A DNA stretch of 64,000 nt from Aeromicrobium sp. Root495 (lineage in GTDB: Bacteria > Actinomycetota > Actinomycetes > Propionibacteriales > Nocardioidaceae): assembly GCF_001426755.1 (NCBI RefSeq), contig NZ_LMFJ01000001.1, positions 1,774,467 to 1,838,466 on the forward strand, in the 5' to 3' direction. The notes below the pieces were generated by a model. It did not search any database. It was not told the DNA's origin and worked only from the letters and a program-made list of their open reading frames with translations. How positions within the stretch are numbered: the stretch's first letter is position 1; each line of letters starts with the position of its first letter. The position numbers were made by a program, and so were the translations under genes. Shown here in pieces: positions 23,777 to 44,927 of the stretch.

Positions 23777-24110
23777 GGCACGCGCCTCGTTCTTCTCGCG
23801 ACGACGAGCCTGCTTGGCCTCGGCCTTGGCCTGCTTGGCCTCGCGTCGGGCGGCAGCACGGTCCTCGCGGGACGCGCGACGCTCCTCGGCAGGGTCGGAC
23901 CCGGACCCGACGTCACCCGTCTCGGCGAGCGAGGCAGCCGTGACGGCACCGGCGACCGGGTCGTCGTAGGACGCCGACGTCCAGGACTGGGTGGTCTCGG
24001 ACGAGGTGGGACCGGGCTCGGCGTTCGAGCCACGGGTGGGACGGACCGGCAGGTCTGCGGCGATGTCTCCCGCCGTCAGGACCTCACTTGCGCCGGATGA
24101 TGCTTTTTTT
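23777..24110 (-). other. Start-less coding extension with an upstream A7/T7 tract
   Basis: In frame with the gene at 22757-23776 this stretch reads [17 protein letters not shown] and on through an Arg/Ala/Lys helix, with high GC3 throughout, yet has no standard start codon. It overlaps the stop of the upstream gene (TGA, 24086-24084). A run of seven A on the minus strand (24110-24104) lies just before. A +1 shift there, or one fewer A, would fuse the two genes in frame. Alternatives are a non-standard start, a decayed start codon or a sequencing indel. Confidence 0.55.
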
Positions 24111-26660
24111 GGCCGAACCGGCGAGATCCCCTGACTCGTCGTTCACCTCCGGGGAACCCTCAGCCGGCTTCTCGTCGACGAACTCGTCGACACTCGGCTG
24201 CGACGACACCGCGAGCGGTGTGTCCTTGGCGGACTGGTTGGCCATGACGATGTGGGCCTGAGCGACCCGTTCGGCCTCGGCCTCGGCCGCTGCCACCCAC
24301 TCCATGGCGGTGCGCTCGGCCTCGACCAGCTTCTCCTCGGCGGCGACGCGAGCCGCGGCGACCGCCTGGCTCAGGCGCTCGTGCGCCTCGAGCTTGGAGG
24401 CCTGGGTGAGACGCTCGGCCTCGCGCTGGGCCTCGGCGATGCGCTGCTGCGCGTCGGCCTCGGCCCGCTCGGCCACGGCCTTGGCCTCGGCCTCGGCCTT
24501 GGCGATGCGCTCGGCGGCATCCTTCTCGGCCTGGGCCAGACGCTCCTCGGCGGCGCGACGGGCGGCGTCGGCCTCCTCGGCCTGCTTGCGCGCGGCCTCC
24601 TCACGGGCGGCTGCGGCTGCACGAGCCGCATCAGCGGCCTCGGAGGCCACCCGCTCGGCCTCGGCCTGGGCGTTGCGGACGCGCTCCTCGGCCTCCCGGG
24701 CGGCGTCGGCCAGCTTGGCCTTGGCCTCGGCACGCTCGGCCTCGGCCTCGCGTGCCACACGAGCAGCCTCCTCGGTGACGCGGGCGGCGTCGGCCTTGGC
24801 CTCGTCGCGCTCGCGTGCCAGCTGGGCGGCGGCGTCCTCGTGACGCGCTGCGGCCTCGGACGCGAGGCGCTCGGCCTCGGTGCGGGCCGCCGTGAGCTGA
24901 GCCTCGGCGGCGCGCTCGGCATCCGACAGCTTGACGGCGATCGCGACGCGCTCGGCGGCGACCTCCTGGGCGTACTTCTCGGCCTCGGACTTGGCTGCCT
25001 GGACGTGCTGCTCGGAGGTGGACTTGGCGTCGGCGACGATGCGCTCGGCCTCGGCCTGGACCTCGCGGAGCTTGGCATCGGCCTCGGCACGCTCCTGGGC
25101 GAGCTGTGCCTCGGCGGCAGCGCGCTCCTGCTGGGCCTTGTCCGCGAGGGACTCGGCCAGCGAACGTGCCTCGGCGATCTGGCGCTGCGCGTCCGCCTCG
25201 GCGGCCTCGAGCCGGCGCTGGGCCGCCTCTGACGCTGCCCGCTCGGCCTCGACGAGCTTCTCGGCCGCGGTGCGCTTGGCCTGCTCCTCGGCGGCCTCGA
25301 GACGACGCTCGGCCTCCATCTTGGCCTCGTCGAGACGACGCTGCGCCTCGCGCTCGGCATCTTCCCTGGCCTGGGCGACGCGGTCGTCGGCCTCGCGCTG
25401 GAGCTGGGCGATCTTCTCCGCAGCGGCAGCACGCTCGCGCTCGATCTCGGCGGCGACGCGCTCGGCCTCCTGGCGGGCCGCGTTGACGCGGTCCTCCGCT
25501 GCCTTCTCGGCAGCGGCCAGCTTGGCCTGCAGCGCCACGCGCTGGGAGTTCTCGTCGGCCTCGATGCGCGCGACGGCCTCGGCGCGCTCACGAGCGGCCT
25601 CCTCCATGAGTCGCGCTGCCTCGGCGCGCGCCGCGGCGACGCGCTGCTGGGCGGCGGAGCTGGCCGCGGCCAGCTTCTGGGCGAAGCTCTCGCCCGCGGC
25701 CGGGGCCGGGGTGGGCTCGGCGGCAGGCGTGGGCTCGGCGTAGGACGCGAAGGCGGGGTCGGGCGCGGCCTCGGCCACCGGGGCCGGCTCCGGCTCGGGG
25801 GTCGGCTCGGGCTCGGGCGCGACCTCGGCCACCGGGGCCGGCTCGGGCTCCGGCTCCGGCTCGGGCTCGGGCTCCGGCTCAGGCTCCGGCTCGGGCTCGG
25901 GCTCAGGCTCGGGCTCGGGCGCGACCTCGGCCACGGGGGCCGGCTCAGGCGCGACCTCGGCCACGGGGGCCGGCTCGGGCTCGGCCGACTCGGGCACGGA
26001 GTCGGTGAGCGCGGCCTCGATGTCGGCGTCGCGCGACGGCTCGTCGGCGGCGAAGTCGGCTGCGGACTGTCCGGCGAACTTCTGCGACAGCACGCTCGCC
26101 CAACGCGACGGCGGCTCCTCCGGGACGCTCTCCTGCGCGGGAGCCGCGGGGGGCTCCTCGTTCACGATGGTCTCGACGACGGGCTCCTCGACGACGACCG
26201 GCTCCTCGGCCTGGGCGACCTCGGGGGCGGGCTCCGCCTGCGGCTCCTCGGCCGGGGCCTGCTCGGGCGCGGGCGCCTCGGCCACCGGCTCCTCGATCCG
26301 CGGGATCTCGGCGGTGGGCTCGGGCGTGTCGGAGGACCCCTGGGGGCTCACGACGGGCTGGGGCTCGGGTGCGGCGGCCGTCTCGGGCGTGGGGTCGGCA
26401 TCCTTGGCGCGCTCGGGAGCAGAACCGGAGTCGTTGCCCTGACGGCGACGAGCCAGGGCCCGAGCCGCTGAACGCTCCTCACGACGGCGGTCCGAAGCCG
26501 CCTGGCGTGCGGCGCGCGACGCTGCGCGGCGGCCGCGGCGGTCGTCGCTGCCGGCCTCCTCGGGAGTGTCTGACTCCTCCTGCGCGAGCGTCTCGGCGGC
26601 GACCTGCAACGGGTCGACTCGACGTCGCTCCGCAGGCTTGTTCGATCCTGAGTCGGTCAT
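24084..26660 (-). CDS. Large Ala/Glu coiled-coil protein with Glu-Pro repeats
   Basis: The 858-residue protein has an Arg-rich N-terminus (about residues 1-90), an acidic Pro/Glu/Ala region with a long Glu-Pro run and repeated [10 protein letters not shown] modules (about 225-310), then some 500 residues of continuous Ala/Glu/Arg coiled coil with a heptad-like pattern, and a basic tail ending KKSIIRRK. There is no signal peptide or membrane helix. Long coiled coils of this type organise polar growth or cytoskeletal scaffolds in actinobacteria (Scy, FilP and DivIVA-like), but no family-specific motif is seen. It ends at the A7 tract that leads into the next gene's frame. Confidence 0.85.
25782..25985. 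repeat. Glu-Pro-coding microsatellite and 30-bp tandem repeats
   Basis: Six-base units alternating GGCTCG and GGCTCC encode the Glu-Pro run. Two exact 30-bp copies follow at 25921-25950 and 25951-25980, with a third, slightly diverged copy near 25818. All lie in the reading frame of the coiled-coil gene, so length changes by slippage would keep the frame. Confidence 0.75.
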
Positions 26661-26721
26661 GACTCCCTTTCTCCGACACCGATGGGCGTCCAACGTCGTG
26701 CCCAGTATGCCCCATGCGTCC

Positions 26722-26734
26722 CCTGTGTCACAGG
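26722..26734. promoter_or_regulatory. Palindrome upstream of the coiled-coil gene
   Basis: CCTGTGTCACAGG is a perfect palindrome around a central T. It lies 62-74 bases upstream of the coiled-coil start and just before CATACT, a possible -10 box on the minus strand. It may be an operator, but no regulator is assigned. Confidence 0.4.
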
Positions 26735-26770
26735 ACGTAGGGCTTGGTCCAAGCTCTCTTCGCGGCGGCG

Positions 26771-27550
26771 TCAGCGACCCGTGAAGGTCGCCTTGCCCGG
26801 CCCGTTCTCGACGAACGATGCCATACCTGCGGACTGGTCGTCTGTGGCGAACAGCCCGGTGAACTCGGTGCGCTCGATCTCGAGGCCCGTCTGGAGGTCC
26901 ACCTCGAGGCCCTTGTCGACCGCTCCCTTGGCCGCGCGGAGCGCCAGAGCAGGACCGCCCACGAACTGGCGCGCCCACTCCACGGCCTTGGCGTAGACCT
27001 CGTCGGCGGGGTGCACCTGGTCGACGAGACCGATGCGCAGCGCCTCCTGGGCGTCCACGAAACGGCCGGTGTAGATGAGGTCCTTGGCGGTCACCGGACC
27101 CACGAGCCGGGCGAGACGCTGCGTGCCGCCCGCCCCGGGGATGATGCCGAGCAGGATCTCGGGCTGGCCGAGCCTGGCGTTGTCGGCGGCGAAGCGGAGA
27201 TCCGTGCTGAGGGCGAGCTCACAGCCGCCGCCCAGCGCGAAGCCGGTGATGGCAGAGACGGTGGGCTTGCCGATGGCGGCGACGGCGCGCGTGAACTCCT
27301 GGAGCAGGTGGGCGTGGCGCACCATCTGCTGGTAGCTCATGTCGGCCATCTCCTTGACGTCGGCGCCGGCCGCGAAGACCCTCTCGCCACCGTGCACGAC
27401 CACGGCAGCGACGTCGTCGTCCGCGTCGGCCTGACGAGCGACCTCGAGGATCTCCTGCTGCATCTGGGCGTCGAGGGCGTTCATCTTGGGACGGTCGAGC
27501 CGGATGGTGCCGACCCCGTCCTCGATCTCGAGTCGTACGAGCTCTCCCAC
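26771..27550 (-). CDS. Enoyl-CoA hydratase/isomerase
   Basis: The 259-residue crotonase-fold protein has the oxyanion-hole segment ([12 protein letters not shown]), the GGGCELAL turn and the active-site region with glutamate in [19 protein letters not shown]. It resembles short-chain enoyl-CoA hydratases of fatty-acid oxidation. It could hydrate crotonyl-CoA between the thiolase, dehydrogenase and ccr steps encoded later in the window, but substrate range is not readable from sequence. GTG at 27550 is preferred because homology begins there and GAGAGG lies upstream; the 36 extra N-terminal residues look non-coding. Confidence 0.9.
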
Positions 27551-27695
27551 GGCAGTCCTCTCCTCGGCGACTCGCGAGCCGCGGCCTCGCCGACGGCCTG
27601 CCGCCGGACGCGCCCGAGCATAGTGGGCGGCGTCCGTCCGCTCCCCGATCCCCGCCACGGCCGTCCGGCTGTCCCAGGAACGTGCTTCTGACTAC

Positions 27696-27701
27696 TAGGG
27701 T
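27696..27701 (+). promoter_or_regulatory. Leaderless -10 box of the GlgE-like gene
   Basis: TAGGGT is followed by six bases and the ATG at 27708. There is no Shine-Dalgarno sequence, so transcription probably begins at the start codon. Confidence 0.5.
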
Positions 27702-27707
27702 GCTCGC

Positions 27708-29618
27708 ATGGTCACTCGCGTCCCCGTGTTCGACGTGCGCCCGCAGATCGAGGGCGGACGTCACGCGGTCAAGGTCGTGGAGCACGAGGAGATCACGGTC
27801 CGCGCCCAGGTGTTCGGGGAGGACCACCTGGTGGTCCGGGCCGCGGTCGTCCTGGCCGACCCCGACGGTCACGACCGCCCTGCCGTGCCGCTGCGGCTCG
27901 TGGGCGACGACCTCTGGGCCGCCACCGTCGCGCCCGACCGCACCGGCACCTGGACCTACCGCATCGTCTCGTGGCACGACCCGCTCGCGGCCTGGGTCCG
28001 CGACGCACGCGTCACGATCGAGGCCGGTGTCGACGTCGACCTCACGCTCGCCGAGGGCAGCGCCGTCCTGCGCCGGGCCCAGCACCTCGACCCGGCCGCC
28101 GTCTCCGTGGCGGAGGGGCTCACCGACCCTGCCGTCGAGGCGGTCGAACGACTTGCCATGGCACTCGCCTTCATCGCCACCCTGCCCCGCGACGCCGTGC
28201 GCGAGCACCTCGACACCACGGCGGCCTTCCCGCTCGTGGTCGATCGCGAACGCGCGCTCGTCGGGTCCTGGTACACGCTGTTCCCCCGGTCCGAGGGCGC
28301 AGCCGTCGACGCCGACGGCACCGTCCGGCCCGGCACCCTGCGCACTGCGGCCAAGCGCCTCGAGCAGGTCGCGGCCATGGGCTTCGACGTCGTGCACCTG
28401 CCGCCCGTCCACCCCATCGGCCGTACCGGTCGCCGCGGCCGCGACGGGGCGCTCGTGGCCGCACCCGGCGACCCGGGCTCGCCCTGGGCCGTCGGCGCGG
28501 TCGAGGGCGGTCACGACGCCGTCCACCCCGAGCTCGGCACCTTCGACGACTTCGACGCCTTCGTGGAGCGCGCCCACCAGCTGGGGATCGAGGTGGCACT
28601 CGACCTCGCGCTCCAGTGCTCACCCGACCATCCCTGGGCCCAGGAGCACCCGGAGTGGTTCCGGCCCGGGTCGGCCGGTCCGCTCGCGCCCCAGCAGGAG
28701 GTCAGTCCACTCGACTTCGACGCCGACCCGGTGGGTCTCTACGTCGAGGTGCTCCACGTCCTCAGCACCTGGATCGACCACGGCGTGCGGATCTTCCGGG
28801 TCCACAGCCCGCAGGGCAAGCCGGTGGCGTTCTGGCAGCAGCTCCTGGCCGACGTCCGCGCCATCGACCCCGACGTCATCTTCGTCTCCGACACCACGAG
28901 CGGCGCAGCAGCCGGCCCGGCCATGACGAGGGCCCTGGCCACCGTGGGCTTCCACCAGAGCACCACGTCCCTCATGGTCCACGAGGGCGCGAGCGAGACC
29001 TCGGCGCACCTCGACGAGGTGTCCAACCGCACGAGCGACGTGCTGCGGCCCGCATTCTTCGTCAACACCCCTGAGCTGCTCCCCCGGAACCTGCAGGGCG
29101 CCGAGCCCTCGATGTTCGCCATGCGCGCCGCGCTGGCGGCCACGGGCTCACCCACGTGGGGCATCTCCGCCGGCTTCGAGCTGTGCGAGAACGAGGCGGC
29201 CGGGGCCCACCAGGGCGTCGCCGCCGATGCCTATCGCCATCCCGAGGCCTACGAGGTCAAGCTGCGCGACCACGACTCCGCCGAGTCCATCGCGCCGTAC
29301 GTGGCCCGTCTCAACGAGATCCGTCGCCGGCACGTCGCGCTGCAGAGGCTGCGCAACCTGGTCGTCCACTCCGTCGACCACATGGGCGTCATCGCCTTCT
29401 CCAAGGTGAGTGGCGACGACCTCGTCCTCGTCGTCATCGACCTCTTCCCCGCGTTCCGCAAGCGCGTGGGCATCGAGGTGACGCCGGAGGACCTGGGGCT
29501 CCCGAGCGGCACCGCCCTGCGCATGCGCGACGAGATCGACGGCACGGAGTGCGAGGTCTCCTCGGTCCCGCTCGACCTCGACTCGCCGGCCCGCATCCTG
29601 GTGCTCGCCCACAGCTGA
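27708..29618 (+). CDS. GlgE-like GH13 protein lacking catalytic residues
   Basis: The 636-residue protein aligns along its length with GlgE maltosyltransferases (N-terminal beta domain, VVHLPPVHPIGRT, DLALQCSPDHPW, GFELCEN). The key residues are changed. The nucleophile Asp of RIFRVDNP is His366 (RIFRVHSP). The general acid Glu of LAEAF is Asp395 in VSDTT. The Asp of FVNTPD is Glu456. The donor/acceptor loops (YTYFTWR; the AENPPKKY region) are missing or rewritten. It is probably not a maltosyltransferase. No frameshift is present, so the protein seems maintained. Neither glgB nor treS is adjacent. Confidence 0.85.
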   Translation: MVTRVPVFDVRPQIEGGRHAVKVVEHEEITVRAQVFGEDHLVVRAAVVLADPDGHDRPAVPLRLVGDDLWAATVAPDRTGTWTYRIVSWHDPLAAWVRDARVTIEAGVDVDLTLAEGSAVLRRAQHLDPAAVSVAEGLTDPAVEAVERLAMALAFIATLPRDAVREHLDTTAAFPLVVDRERALVGSWYTLFPRSEGAAVDADGTVRPGTLRTAAKRLEQVAAMGFDVVHLPPVHPIGRTGRRGRDGALVAAPGDPGSPWAVGAVEGGHDAVHPELGTFDDFDAFVERAHQLGIEVALDLALQCSPDHPWAQEHPEWFRPGSAGPLAPQQEVSPLDFDADPVGLYVEVLHVLSTWIDHGVRIFRVHSPQGKPVAFWQQLLADVRAIDPDVIFVSDTTSGAAAGPAMTRALATVGFHQSTTSLMVHEGASETSAHLDEVSNRTSDVLRPAFFVNTPELLPRNLQGAEPSMFAMRAALAATGSPTWGISAGFELCENEAAGAHQGVAADAYRHPEAYEVKLRDHDSAESIAPYVARLNEIRRRHVALQRLRNLVVHSVDHMGVIAFSKVSGDDLVLVVIDLFPAFRKRVGIEVTPEDLGLPSGTALRMRDEIDGTECEVSSVPLDLDSPARILVLAHS

Positions 29619-29687
29619 GGCCGACCTCCCAGCGAGGTCAGTGCACGTCCACAGGGAACGCCCAGGACCGGCGCCTTCCCTGGAGTC

Positions 29688-30830
29688 ATGAGCAGCCGAC
29701 ACGTCATCGTCCGTGGTCTCGGGACCGCACTCGCCTTCGCCCTGGGGGCCGGCGGCATCGCCTATGCCACCACCGGCGCAGGACCCGCGCAGCAGCAGAC
29801 CGCCGTCGCGGTCCAGGGATCACCCTCCCAAGAGGAGGCCGCGCTGCCCACCCGGCCGCGAGGGGCCTGGGGCTCGCTCGACGGCGGCTCGTCGGCCGGG
29901 TCGGGAGGCACCTCGATCCAGTCGCAGGCCACCGACGCCACGACGGAGCAGGAGAAGGGCCTCGTCTACCTCACCTCGACCGTGGCCGGCGGCACCTCGG
30001 CCGGCACCGGCATGGTCCTCACCGCCGACGGCGAGGTCGTGACGAACCACCACGTCGTGGAGGGTGCCGGCTCGATCACCGCCGAGGTCGTCTCCACGGG
30101 CGAGAAGTACCGCGCCACGGTCGTGGGCTACGACGCCACCCACGACGTCGCCGTCCTCGAGCTCACGGATGCCTCCGGGCTGGCCACCGTGACGACCGAC
30201 CCGAGCGGCGACGTCGAGGTCGGCGACGCCGTGGTGGGCGTGGGCAACGCCAACGGCGACGGAGGCGCCGCCAGCGCGGCCGCAGGCACGGTCTCCGCGC
30301 TGGACCGCTCCATCTCCGTCTCCTCGGAGAGCGGCCAGGCCACGGAGCAGCTGAGCGACCTCATCCAGGTCGACGCCGACATCATCTCCGGCGACTCCGG
30401 TGGCGCGCTGTACGACGCCGACGGCGAGGTCATCGGCATGAACACGGCCGCCTCGAGCGGCACCCAGGACGTCACCGGCTACGCGATCCCCATCGCGGAC
30501 GCCCTCGCCGTGGTGGAGCAGGTCGAGTCCGGCGCCGGGAGCGGAACCGTCCGCGTGGGGTCACCCGGGTTCCTCGGCGTGCAGCTGTCGGGGACCGGCG
30601 CAGGAGCCGTCGTGGCCGACGTGGTGGACGGGTCCGCCGCCGACGGTGCCGGCATCACGTCCGGCAGCACCATCACGTCGCTCGACGGTGACCGCGTGAG
30701 CACGGCTGACGCCCTGGCCTCCGCCGTGGCCGACCACCCCGCAGGAGCCCAGGTGGTGGTGGGGTGGACCGACGGGAGCGGAGCCTCCCACCAGGCCGGT
30801 GTCACCCTGGGGACCGGTTCGGCCGGCTGA
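29688..30830 (+). CDS. HtrA-like S1C serine protease with PDZ domain
   Basis: The 380-residue protein has an N-terminal signal or anchor segment (residues about 8-28), a low-complexity linker, and a trypsin-like domain with the triad His122 (TNHHVV), Asp153 (HDVAVL) and Ser237 (SGDSGGAL). A C-terminal PDZ-like domain (GFLGVQLSGTGAGAVVADV) follows. Such proteins act in envelope protein quality control. GGAG lies close upstream of the ATG. It follows the GlgE-like gene on the same strand after 69 bases containing small hairpins, so it is probably separately regulated. Confidence 0.88.
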   Translation: MSSRHVIVRGLGTALAFALGAGGIAYATTGAGPAQQQTAVAVQGSPSQEEAALPTRPRGAWGSLDGGSSAGSGGTSIQSQATDATTEQEKGLVYLTSTVAGGTSAGTGMVLTADGEVVTNHHVVEGAGSITAEVVSTGEKYRATVVGYDATHDVAVLELTDASGLATVTTDPSGDVEVGDAVVGVGNANGDGGAASAAAGTVSALDRSISVSSESGQATEQLSDLIQVDADIISGDSGGALYDADGEVIGMNTAASSGTQDVTGYAIPIADALAVVEQVESGAGSGTVRVGSPGFLGVQLSGTGAGAVVADVVDGSAADGAGITSGSTITSLDGDRVSTADALASAVADHPAGAQVVVGWTDGSGASHQAGVTLGTGSAG

Positions 30831-30897
30831 GCCCGCCCGGTCCTCCGACCCCGCCCGTCCCGCGCACCAGCGGGTGCAGGCCCCTCCCCCACCCGGA

Positions 30898-30903
30898 TAC
30901 GGT
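30898..30903 (+). promoter_or_regulatory. Leaderless -10 box of the GNAT-Nudix gene
   Basis: TACGGT lies six bases before the GTG at 30910. The identical hexamer and spacing precede the Cys-rich mini-protein at 45957. No ribosome site is seen. Confidence 0.5.
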
Positions 30904-30909
30904 GGACGG

Positions 30910-31776
30910 GTGACCGTCCCGCTGCAGCACGACGACCTCGTCCTCGAGCCCACCAGCGGCGCCGACGGACTCGACGGGTGGAGCGTCGTCGTCGACGGCG
31001 AGCGTCGAGGCACCATCGCGCTGCGCGACGACTCCGGACGCACCTTCTCGGTCCGATGGAACACCGGCACCGGCCCGGAGGCCTTCGGCCTGGCCGTCCG
31101 AGCGCTGCGGCTCGTGGTGGAGCATGCCTTCACCGACCTCGGCGCAGTCCGCGTGGAGGCGCGCATCCCCGTGGAGCGCACCGACGACGTCCGCGCCGCG
31201 TCGGTCTCGGGACTGCGGCGAGAGGGCATCGTGCGCGGCGCCGGCACGCTCCCCGACCGGGCCCTCCTGGCCCGGCTCGTCGACGACCCGCCGGCGTCCA
31301 GCCGCGACGGCTTCATCGCTCTGCTCAACGCGGGCCTGCCCACGAAGCGGGTCATCGCCCAAGGCCTGCTGCGCGACGAGCGGGGCCGCGTCCTGCTGTG
31401 CCGGCTCACGTACAAGAGCGAGTGGGACCTCCCGGGCGGCGTCATCGAGGTCGGTGAGGCACCCGGCCTGGGTCTCGTGCGGGAGCTGCAGGAGGAGCTC
31501 GGCGTCACCCTGCCGCTGGGCGACCTCGTCACCGTGAACTGGCTCCCCGCCTGGAGGGGCTGGGACGACGCGTGCATCTTCCTCTTCGACCTCGGCACCG
31601 TCGACTCCTCGTGGTCCGACGACCTCACGTTGCAGCCCACCGAGATCGCGGGGGTGGAGTGGTGCGACGAGGCCACGTGGCGCGAGAAGGCCACGGCGGC
31701 AGCCGTCGAGCTCCTCGCCGACGTCACGGCCGGCACGGTGAGCACCTATCGAGAGGCGCCGCTCGCTCCGGAGTGA
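30910..31776 (+). CDS. GNAT-like and Nudix hydrolase fusion
   Basis: The 288-residue protein combines an N-terminal region resembling RimJ-type GNAT acetyltransferases (residues about 1-125, with GPEAFGLAVRALRLVVEHAF) and a C-terminal Nudix hydrolase (about 150-285). The Nudix box is complete: GVIEVGE, seven residues, then RELQEELGV. The Nudix half is therefore expected to be active on a nucleoside-diphosphate-type substrate. The GNAT half lacks an obvious acetyl-CoA loop and may be degenerate. The GTG start follows a TACGGT box by six bases; the upstream reading to 30799 overlaps the protease gene. Confidence 0.82.
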   Translation: MTVPLQHDDLVLEPTSGADGLDGWSVVVDGERRGTIALRDDSGRTFSVRWNTGTGPEAFGLAVRALRLVVEHAFTDLGAVRVEARIPVERTDDVRAASVSGLRREGIVRGAGTLPDRALLARLVDDPPASSRDGFIALLNAGLPTKRVIAQGLLRDERGRVLLCRLTYKSEWDLPGGVIEVGEAPGLGLVRELQEELGVTLPLGDLVTVNWLPAWRGWDDACIFLFDLGTVDSSWSDDLTLQPTEIAGVEWCDEATWREKATAAAVELLADVTAGTVSTYREAPLAPE

Positions 31777-43836: not shown

Positions 43837-44253
43837 ATGAATCGGCGTATGACAGTGGCCACAGCCCTGGGCACGGGTGCCCTGGCGCTCGGCGTCCTGG
43901 CAGGTTGCGGCACCGACGAGAAGCCGTCGCCGCCGCTCACGGAGCCCACGTCCGCCGCCACCCCGTCGGACTCCCCCAGCGAGTCCGCGGCCCCCGAGCA
44001 GGGCTCCCCCGCCACCGCCGACGACCTCGTGGGCGACTGGACCGACGCCGAGGCCGAGTGGACCGTCCACTTCAAGGACGGCGGGCAGTTCACGATGGAC
44101 TACGAGGGCGTCACCGACTTCATGTCGGGCACCTACACGCTCGAGGACGGCAAGGTCACCCTCGAGGGTGGCGACGGGGTCGACGAGGGCACTGTCGAGG
44201 GCAACACCCTGGTCTTCAAGCTCGGCACGCTCGAGCGCGTCGCTGCCGAGTGA
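43837..44253 (+). CDS. Small putative lipoprotein
   Basis: The 138-residue protein has a signal peptide and lipobox LAGC (about Cys25), a Ser/Pro/Glu-rich linker and a small beta domain ([37 protein letters not shown]) of the lipocalin-like META/DUF type. Function is unknown. It overlaps nucS by four bases (GTGA), so the two are co-translated despite unlike roles. Confidence 0.8.
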
Positions 44254-44927
44254 GGATCGTCGTCGCGCGCTGCCAGGTCGACTACGCCGGCCGGCTCAGC
44301 GCCCACCTGCCCATGGCCACCCGGGTCATCATGGTGAAGGCCGACGGCTCCGTGCTCGTGCACTCCGACGGCGGTTCGTACAAGCCCCTCAACTGGATGA
44401 GCCCCCCGTGCACGCTGCGCGAGGGCGTCACCGACGACGGCGTGCCGGAGTGGACGGTGTCGGCCCACAAGTCCGACGACACGCTGCGCATCCTCCTCGA
44501 GGAGGTGCTGCACGACTCCGCCCACGAGCTGGGCGTCGACCCCGGCCTGCAGAAGGACGGCGTGGAGAAGCACCTCCAGGAGCTCCTCGCCGAGCACACC
44601 GCCTCCCTGGGCCCCGGGATGACGCTCGTGCGTCGTGAGTACATGACGGCCATCGGCCCGGTCGACCTCCTGTGCAAGGACGCCACCGGCGCCTCGGTGG
44701 CCGTGGAGATCAAGCGCCGGGGCGACATCGATGGCGTGGAGCAGCTCACCCGCTACCTCGAGCTCATGAACCGCGACCCGCACCTGCGCCCCGTGAAGGG
44801 CATCTTCGCCGCGCAGGAGATCAAGCCCCAGGCCCGCACCCTCGCCCTCGACCGGGGCATCCAGTGCGTCGTCGTGAACTACGACGAGCTGCGCGGCATC
44901 GACGACCCCAGCCTTCGGCTGTTCTAG
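44250..44927 (+). CDS. nucS: Mismatch-specific endonuclease NucS/EndoMS
   Basis: NucS cuts mismatched DNA on both strands and replaces MutS-MutL in most actinobacteria and many archaea. The 225-residue product has the N-terminal dimer domain ([20 protein letters not shown]) and the RecB-like nuclease core ([19 protein letters not shown]) with YLELMNRD downstream. The GTG start overlapping the upstream stop fits the family N-terminus ([14 protein letters not shown]). Confidence 0.96.

Follow-up and report, generated by a model that had tools for sequence, protein, structure and literature searches.

The gene at 27708..29618 of the window (the whole 64,000-nucleotide stretch of DNA analysed here) encodes a full-length homologue of the maltosyltransferase GlgE that has lost its three catalytic carboxylates and keeps only 3 of 17 functional residues. 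Our preferred explanation, held with some reserve, is that this GlgE, though non-catalytic, has been maintained for a role of its dimerisation and C-terminal domains, comparable to that of the plant isoamylase paralogue ISA2. The gene is found at this locus in 7 of 49 genomes of the genus and is thus dispensable within it; one of these copies is intact (genome G015) and six, including that of the window, have a dismantled donor site and are called dead copies below.

A GlgE homologue with an intact reading frame

The features of the window used in this work are as follows.

26771..27562, - strand: enoyl-CoA hydratase, bounding the probable ancestral glgE operon site on the left
27696..27701, + strand: TAGGGT, leaderless-type -10 hexamer, 6 nt upstream of the ATG, a spacing common to 7/7 locus members
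27708..29618, + strand: predicted non-catalytic GlgE homologue (psi-GlgE), 636 aa, assigned from frame, Pfam, alignment and residue census
27717..28247, + strand: GlgE N/S domains (Pfam PF11896)
28803..28805, + strand: H366 codon CAC at the nucleophile position, where the intact copies shown have Asp (GAC)
28890..28892, + strand: D395 codon GAC at the acid/base position, where the intact copies shown have Glu (GAG); a 4-residue insert comes directly after it
29073..29075, + strand: E456 codon GAG at the third-carboxylate position, where the intact copies shown have Asp (GAC)
29364..29549, + strand: GlgE C-terminal domain (Pfam PF21702)
29688..30830, + strand: trypsin-like/PDZ (HtrA-like) protease gene, directly downstream of the window gene and not at this place in G005, G018, G028 and G065
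30910..31773, + strand: NUDIX protein, bounding the probable ancestral glgE operon site on the right
34453: thioredoxin/TPR gene
37202: thiolase gene
38540: epimerase gene
43905-44927: open reading frame containing the NucS domains

The initial annotation, made from the sequence, described a GlgE homologue with an intact frame and a clean leaderless promoter, and each of these points is borne out. S. coelicolor GlgEI (Sco) aligns over residues 2-613 (1e-160), with the N, S, A/B and C domains all present. The frame (27708-29618, +) runs through 636 codons without a stop, stops being absent from the other locus copies as well, and its GC content by codon position (0.76/0.48/0.94) is near that of the intact G015 gene. 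Pfam models PF11896, PF21702 and PF00128 match the protein. Since both GlgE models pass their cut-offs, an annotation based on domains only would call the gene a maltosyltransferase.

Moreover, a TANNNT hexamer lies exactly 6 nt from the ATG in 7/7 locus genes, three of which come from near-identical species. At spacings of 5-7 nt such a hexamer precedes 8 of 1110 ATGs in the window, and it is absent at that spacing from the four A-type glgE starts inspected (the second GlgE type of the genus, described below).

The gene order proposed for the flank (NucS, epimerase, thiolase, thioredoxin) is correct, but it is stretched across 16 kb; its likeness to the glgE locus of mycobacteria is one that we presume. 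The left neighbour is the enoyl-CoA hydratase and not NucS, which lies 16 kb off. A long open reading frame further left (24084-26978, -) is ~68-75% conserved beside the locus in G005, G015 and G018 and has no convincing Pfam or NCBIfam match; its identification as a glycogen phosphorylase was discarded, as it gave only a low-complexity Pfam match below cut-off and no NCBIfam match.

Catalytic and substrate-binding residues are missing

The three catalytic replacements first noticed in the sequence hold in the alignment with the characterised enzyme, in which H366 stands against the nucleophile D394, D395 against the acid/base E423, and E456 against D480 (S. coelicolor GlgEI numbering throughout for the reference). 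The catalytic Asp/Glu/Asp is not present at shifted positions either; there is no Asp in residues 360-373 and no Glu in residues 389-405 of the window protein, hence none of the catalytic residues has shifted. The donor and acceptor loops are rewritten, as had also been suggested: Sco residues 349-355, including N352 and K355, are deleted, and the substitutions relative to Sco comprise Y357Q, N395S, K264R, N268G, D359E, K534A, W448V, R449H and H397Q.

For a wider comparison, we took a census of 17 residues involved in catalysis or in phosphate, minus-1, minus-2 or acceptor binding, as described in excerpts of PMC4526890 and PMC5076824; we omitted one residue known only from an engineered variant, one contact made through the backbone, and one residue whose mutation has little effect. 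Positions were assigned by a constant offset from G015 and checked against the numbering of the Sco alignment. The window protein keeps Q324, R392 and Y535. By class, it retains 0/3 catalytic, 0/4 phosphate-binding, 1/5 minus-2-subsite and 0/3 acceptor residues: the phosphate-binding N352, K355, Y357 and N395 are respectively deleted, deleted, Gln and Ser, and the acceptor-site Trp448, Arg449 and His397 are Val, His and Gln. The other dead copies keep seven (G063), three (G018, G005 and G028, each) or one (G065) of the 17, while all 56 other GlgE rows of the 62-row census keep 15-17, and 11 additional GlgEs of the family keep 16-17.

The dead copies differ in how far they have been dismantled. 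The Glu of E423 is retained in 5/6 of them, and D394 also in G063. The nucleophile codon is GAC in G015 and G063, CAC in the window, CAG in G018 and G005, and CGG in G028 and G065. Five stretches are missing from G005 and G018, including Sco-like 259-276, 345-358 and 522-544, which are taken to be elements over the donor site. With donor, acceptor and catalytic residues lost, maltose-1-phosphate (M1P) transfer is not expected of the window protein, and judging from its residues this activity has almost certainly gone.

Probable displacement of the family's own GlgE

The best relative of the window protein in the same genome is a second GlgE of 46% identity, ~420 kb away, in an operon with treS, a maltokinase gene (mak) and glgB. 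The initial annotation had suggested looking for an intact glgE with treS and glgB, and a complete operon was indeed found. It lies at G000 C1:1368000-1387500 (L034), and its GlgE, here called A-type, groups with Corynebacterium/Mycobacteriales and not with the family's own GlgE. An A-type GlgE occurs in 32/49 genomes of the genus and in 5/6 of those with a dead copy; in G063 the A operon runs off the contig at treS. In G015, whose assembly is 87% complete, no GlgE was found besides the locus copy. The co-occurrence of a dead copy with the A-type operon was dropped as a test, because there are too few independent cases.

We placed both types in a tree of 73 GlgE sequences, in which the A-type rows are 30 of the 32 found (without G025 and G064) and only two rows on the A side come from outside the genus. 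The seven locus GlgEs form one clade (100/100), nested in the family's GlgE (97/93) and sister to the intact G086 (100/100). The A-type GlgEs, all 30 from the genus, cluster with those of one Corynebacterium and one Mycobacteriales genome (100/99). A contig scan of close named relatives gave four loci, comprising three intact GlgEs and one fragment.

The position of the gene was compared in eight stretches from the family, picked from sequence matches and not at random. In two of them, from two other genera (L141 and L142), glgE-treS-mak-glgB is enclosed by both the hydratase and the NUDIX gene. The hydratase side is visible in L139 and L143 and the NUDIX side in L137 and L138; in L136, glgE and glgB adjoin NUDIX with no treS or mak match, and L140 has neither boundary gene. 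NUDIX matches in these stretches have 42-53% identity. Within the genus, the site in G015 is split between two contigs, one with the hydratase, the intact glgE and treS, the other with treS, mak, glgB and NUDIX. At the window locus no treS was found above the family cut-off. A family-type operon site together with a second GlgE of Corynebacterium/Mycobacteriales type indicates that the window gene probably represents the family's original GlgE, which has been displaced.

The interval between hydratase and NUDIX (27562-30910 in the window, and L105-L124) is a variable island of ~0.16 kb to ~14 kb, whose gene content differs by species. In the intervals of 20 of the 42 genus genomes without the locus gene, three queries revealed no remnant of it at E 0.1. 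No GlgE at 1e-20 was seen in 11 of the 37 high-quality genomes of the genus, and the pathway therefore seems dispensable there.

Number of losses of catalysis

The whole-protein tree unites the six dead copies (96/90), and the columns of the catalytic part do likewise (95/95). The N/S and C columns place G063 outside G015, and a constraint holding the six together has a p-AU of 0.098; grouping the window with G015 is rejected by neither column set (p-AU 0.30 and 0.12). A tree of the hydratase and NUDIX genes joined the window with G015 (99/92). A single loss was therefore dropped as a settled matter, as neither the N/S and C columns nor the hydratase-NUDIX tree unites the six. Long-branch attraction may contribute to the grouping of the dead copies, and the nucleophile codons GAC, CAC, CAG and CGG could be one path. 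One to three losses of catalysis are possible.

The window's genome and the G005 group fall in separate places in the A-type tree, whereas the hydratase-NUDIX tree unites them (95/91), a conflict which makes movement of either region between species within the genus possible.

Rate of change by domain

We counted branch-unique changes with G086 as outgroup, comparing each dead copy with the intact G015 branch; the domain limits are those of Pfam and not of a structure. The window:G015 changes number 21:17 for N/S, 60:18 for the catalytic part and 8:6 for C (Fisher p 0.013, catalytic versus rest). The catalytic part thus changed 3.3 times more on the window branch than in G015, with N/S and C about equal. 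The corresponding figures are 17:20, 67:17 and 15:10 for G063 (p 0.0006) and 43:21, 114:15 and 11:5 for G018 (p 0.0003), where N/S and C show a smaller acceleration of their own.

A similar pattern was observed when the differences between two dead copies were set against those between the active copies of the same species, in pairs that share sequences and hence are non-independent: the ratios for N/S, catalytic part and C are 1.4, 3.3 and 1.5 for G005-G018 (p 0.005), 1.3, 2.7 and 1.5 for G000-G018 (p 0.004), and 1.5, 2.8 and 1.5 for G000-G005 (p 0.004). For G065-G005 they are 2.8, 4.9 and 0.7, which is not significant (p 0.061). It should be noted that N/S and C already evolve fast in active GlgE, so that an acceleration is harder to see in them.

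These counts bear on one possible role, namely that the protein holds alpha-glucan at the old acceptor site or at a secondary site. The descent from GlgE and the kept C domain, with its 8:6 changes, are consistent with such glycan binding. The window protein, however, has W448V, R449H and H397Q at the acceptor site, and the column of Sco Tyr646 holds Ser in the window and G018, Ala in G005 and a gap in G063; this column was inferred from the NY motif, as the Sco alignment ends short of it. The same column is already Ala in the intact G015 and Arg in the intact G086. With the acceptor Trp gone and Tyr646 absent even from G015, the known glucan sites do not explain retention, and the glycan-binding form of the pseudoenzyme idea raised at the outset is weakened and appears improbable.

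Selection on the dead copies

The synonymous sites of the window copy are saturated relative to its nearest relative, G015, and the dN/dS values given here are those of dead copies in other species. In the comparison across close relatives originally suggested, the three pairs among the dead copies of G005, G028 and G065, the closest trio, gave 0.051, 0.040 and 0.040, with 2dlnL against neutrality of 165, 322 and 333. For these pairs the A-type GlgE gave 0.021, 0.019 and 0.018, and the neighbouring genes 0.003-0.030 (four genes in two pairs, i.e., eight comparisons). Five control simulations with a true dN/dS of 1 returned 0.94-1.19. The dead protein of these three species thus has a dN/dS roughly double that of the active copy, a long way from neutrality. 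From the trio to a fourth related species dN/dS is 0.08 (dS 2.7), and all four lack Asp394 and Asp480; the non-catalytic substitutions are thus held across species.

By part, the dead copies of the trio are about equally constrained in N/S (0.039-0.061) and in the catalytic part (0.037-0.059). Their C domain, at 0-0.041, is more constrained than that of the active copies (0.063-0.087). The present constraint on the catalytic part is what a pocket rebuilt for another reaction would lead one to look for, as are the retention of the Glu of E423 in five of the six dead copies and the replacement of N395 by Asp in the same five. The window copy has neither residue (Asp395 and Ser367 stand there instead), and the substrate-loop deletions differ among the window, G063 and G005/G018 copies; we regard a new enzyme as quite improbable.

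Slow decay has to be weighed as well. Under this reading the window copy is redundant, on its way out and free of stops by chance, and the constraint in the G005 group is a separate case. It would accommodate the acceleration of the catalytic part (60:18), the redundant operon in the genome, the 42 of 49 genus genomes that lack the locus gene, and the hydratase-NUDIX grouping with the intact G015, by which the loss could be recent and independent. Against it, no stop or frameshift occurs in 636 codons; in neutral simulations (substitutions only), 1/200 runs stayed free of stops at the window's divergence, compared with 14/200 at 80% and 49/200 at 90% identity, the cases in which only 20% or 10% of residues would have changed since catalysis was lost. 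The codon-position GC near that of G015, the hardly accelerated N/S and C domains, the kept hexamer and the strong constraint on the dead copies of relatives also argue against decay, which we consider unlikely.

Maintenance, which the initial annotation had proposed over a decayed gene, is favoured by the syntenic dismantled copies in five other species, the low dN/dS in three of them, the hexamer in 7/7 locus genes and the second complete operon. The dead copies of the relatives very probably have a maintained function, and the same is likely for the window's own copy.

A candidate binding protein derived from GlgE

To account for a maintained non-catalytic GlgE, we hypothesize that import of the A-type operon would have made the resident glgE redundant, xenologous displacement being the simplest account. 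The treS, mak and glgB genes of the old operon would then have been lost, and the orphan GlgE would either have vanished or been kept as a non-catalytic protein. Such a protein may work by binding through its N/S domains, which are part of the dimer interface, and its C domain. Excerpts of two structural papers assign the GlgE dimer interface to domain N (PMC5076824) or to domains A, N and S (PMC4526890). The role might be that of a regulatory or scaffold subunit of glucan/trehalose metabolism, as a homodimer or as a mixed dimer with active GlgE. We give binding by way of the N/S and C domains an even chance; active GlgE as the partner, suggested by analogy, is more doubtful.

The closest characterised protein is the GlgE maltosyltransferase itself (S. 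coelicolor GlgEI, PDB 5vsj and 3zss; excerpts of PMC5076824 and PMC4526890), with which the window protein shares full-length homology, nesting in the tree and a probable ancestral operon site. It differs in lacking the catalytic, phosphate-binding and acceptor residues and in having no treS above cut-off at its locus. In ISA2, the plant non-catalytic GH13 isoamylase paralogue, as described in excerpts of PMC12510319, the likeness lies in the GH13 fold, the replacement of catalytic residues including the nucleophile, conservation across species and an active paralogue in the same organism. In plants, ISA2 forms a pair with ISA1. The window protein, in contrast, is bacterial, probably derives from a displaced resident copy beside a xenologue and is known here from six species, and its partner role is a proposal. 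A tentative extension would cast the displaced GlgE as a bacterial analogue of ISA2, a non-catalytic subunit modulating glucan synthesis that arose more than once in the genus, the active site being dismantled differently each time and the dimerisation and C domains kept.

GH13 pseudoenzymes are already known. The SLC3 heavy chains rBAT and 4F2hc are GH13-fold proteins serving as partner subunits; unlike the window protein, they are membrane-anchored animal proteins and not derived from GlgE. No non-catalytic GlgE was found in the open-licence PMC papers searched, many of them judged by title, and the excerpts of PMC11046441 hold nothing on one; within these papers a non-catalytic GlgE is new. 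Why cells keep selecting a non-catalytic carbohydrate enzyme is called an open question for ISA2 in an excerpt of PMC12510319. In this one genus there are an intact relative, a copy that is partly dismantled, copies that are fully dead, sites without the gene, and a xenologue that appears to have replaced it, so that the origin of a pseudoenzyme can be traced and put to the test in bacteria. Should the dead GlgE prove to pair with active GlgE, it would add a new regulator to the GlgE pathway.

Two further GlgEs deserve mention. The A-type GlgE of G005 (L048) extends to 781 aa and exceeds its G028 counterpart by ~125 aa. Moreover, a genome from another family of the order (G057 C1:389512-391371, L039) carries a second, very divergent GlgE on a long branch, which has 16 of the 17 functional residues.
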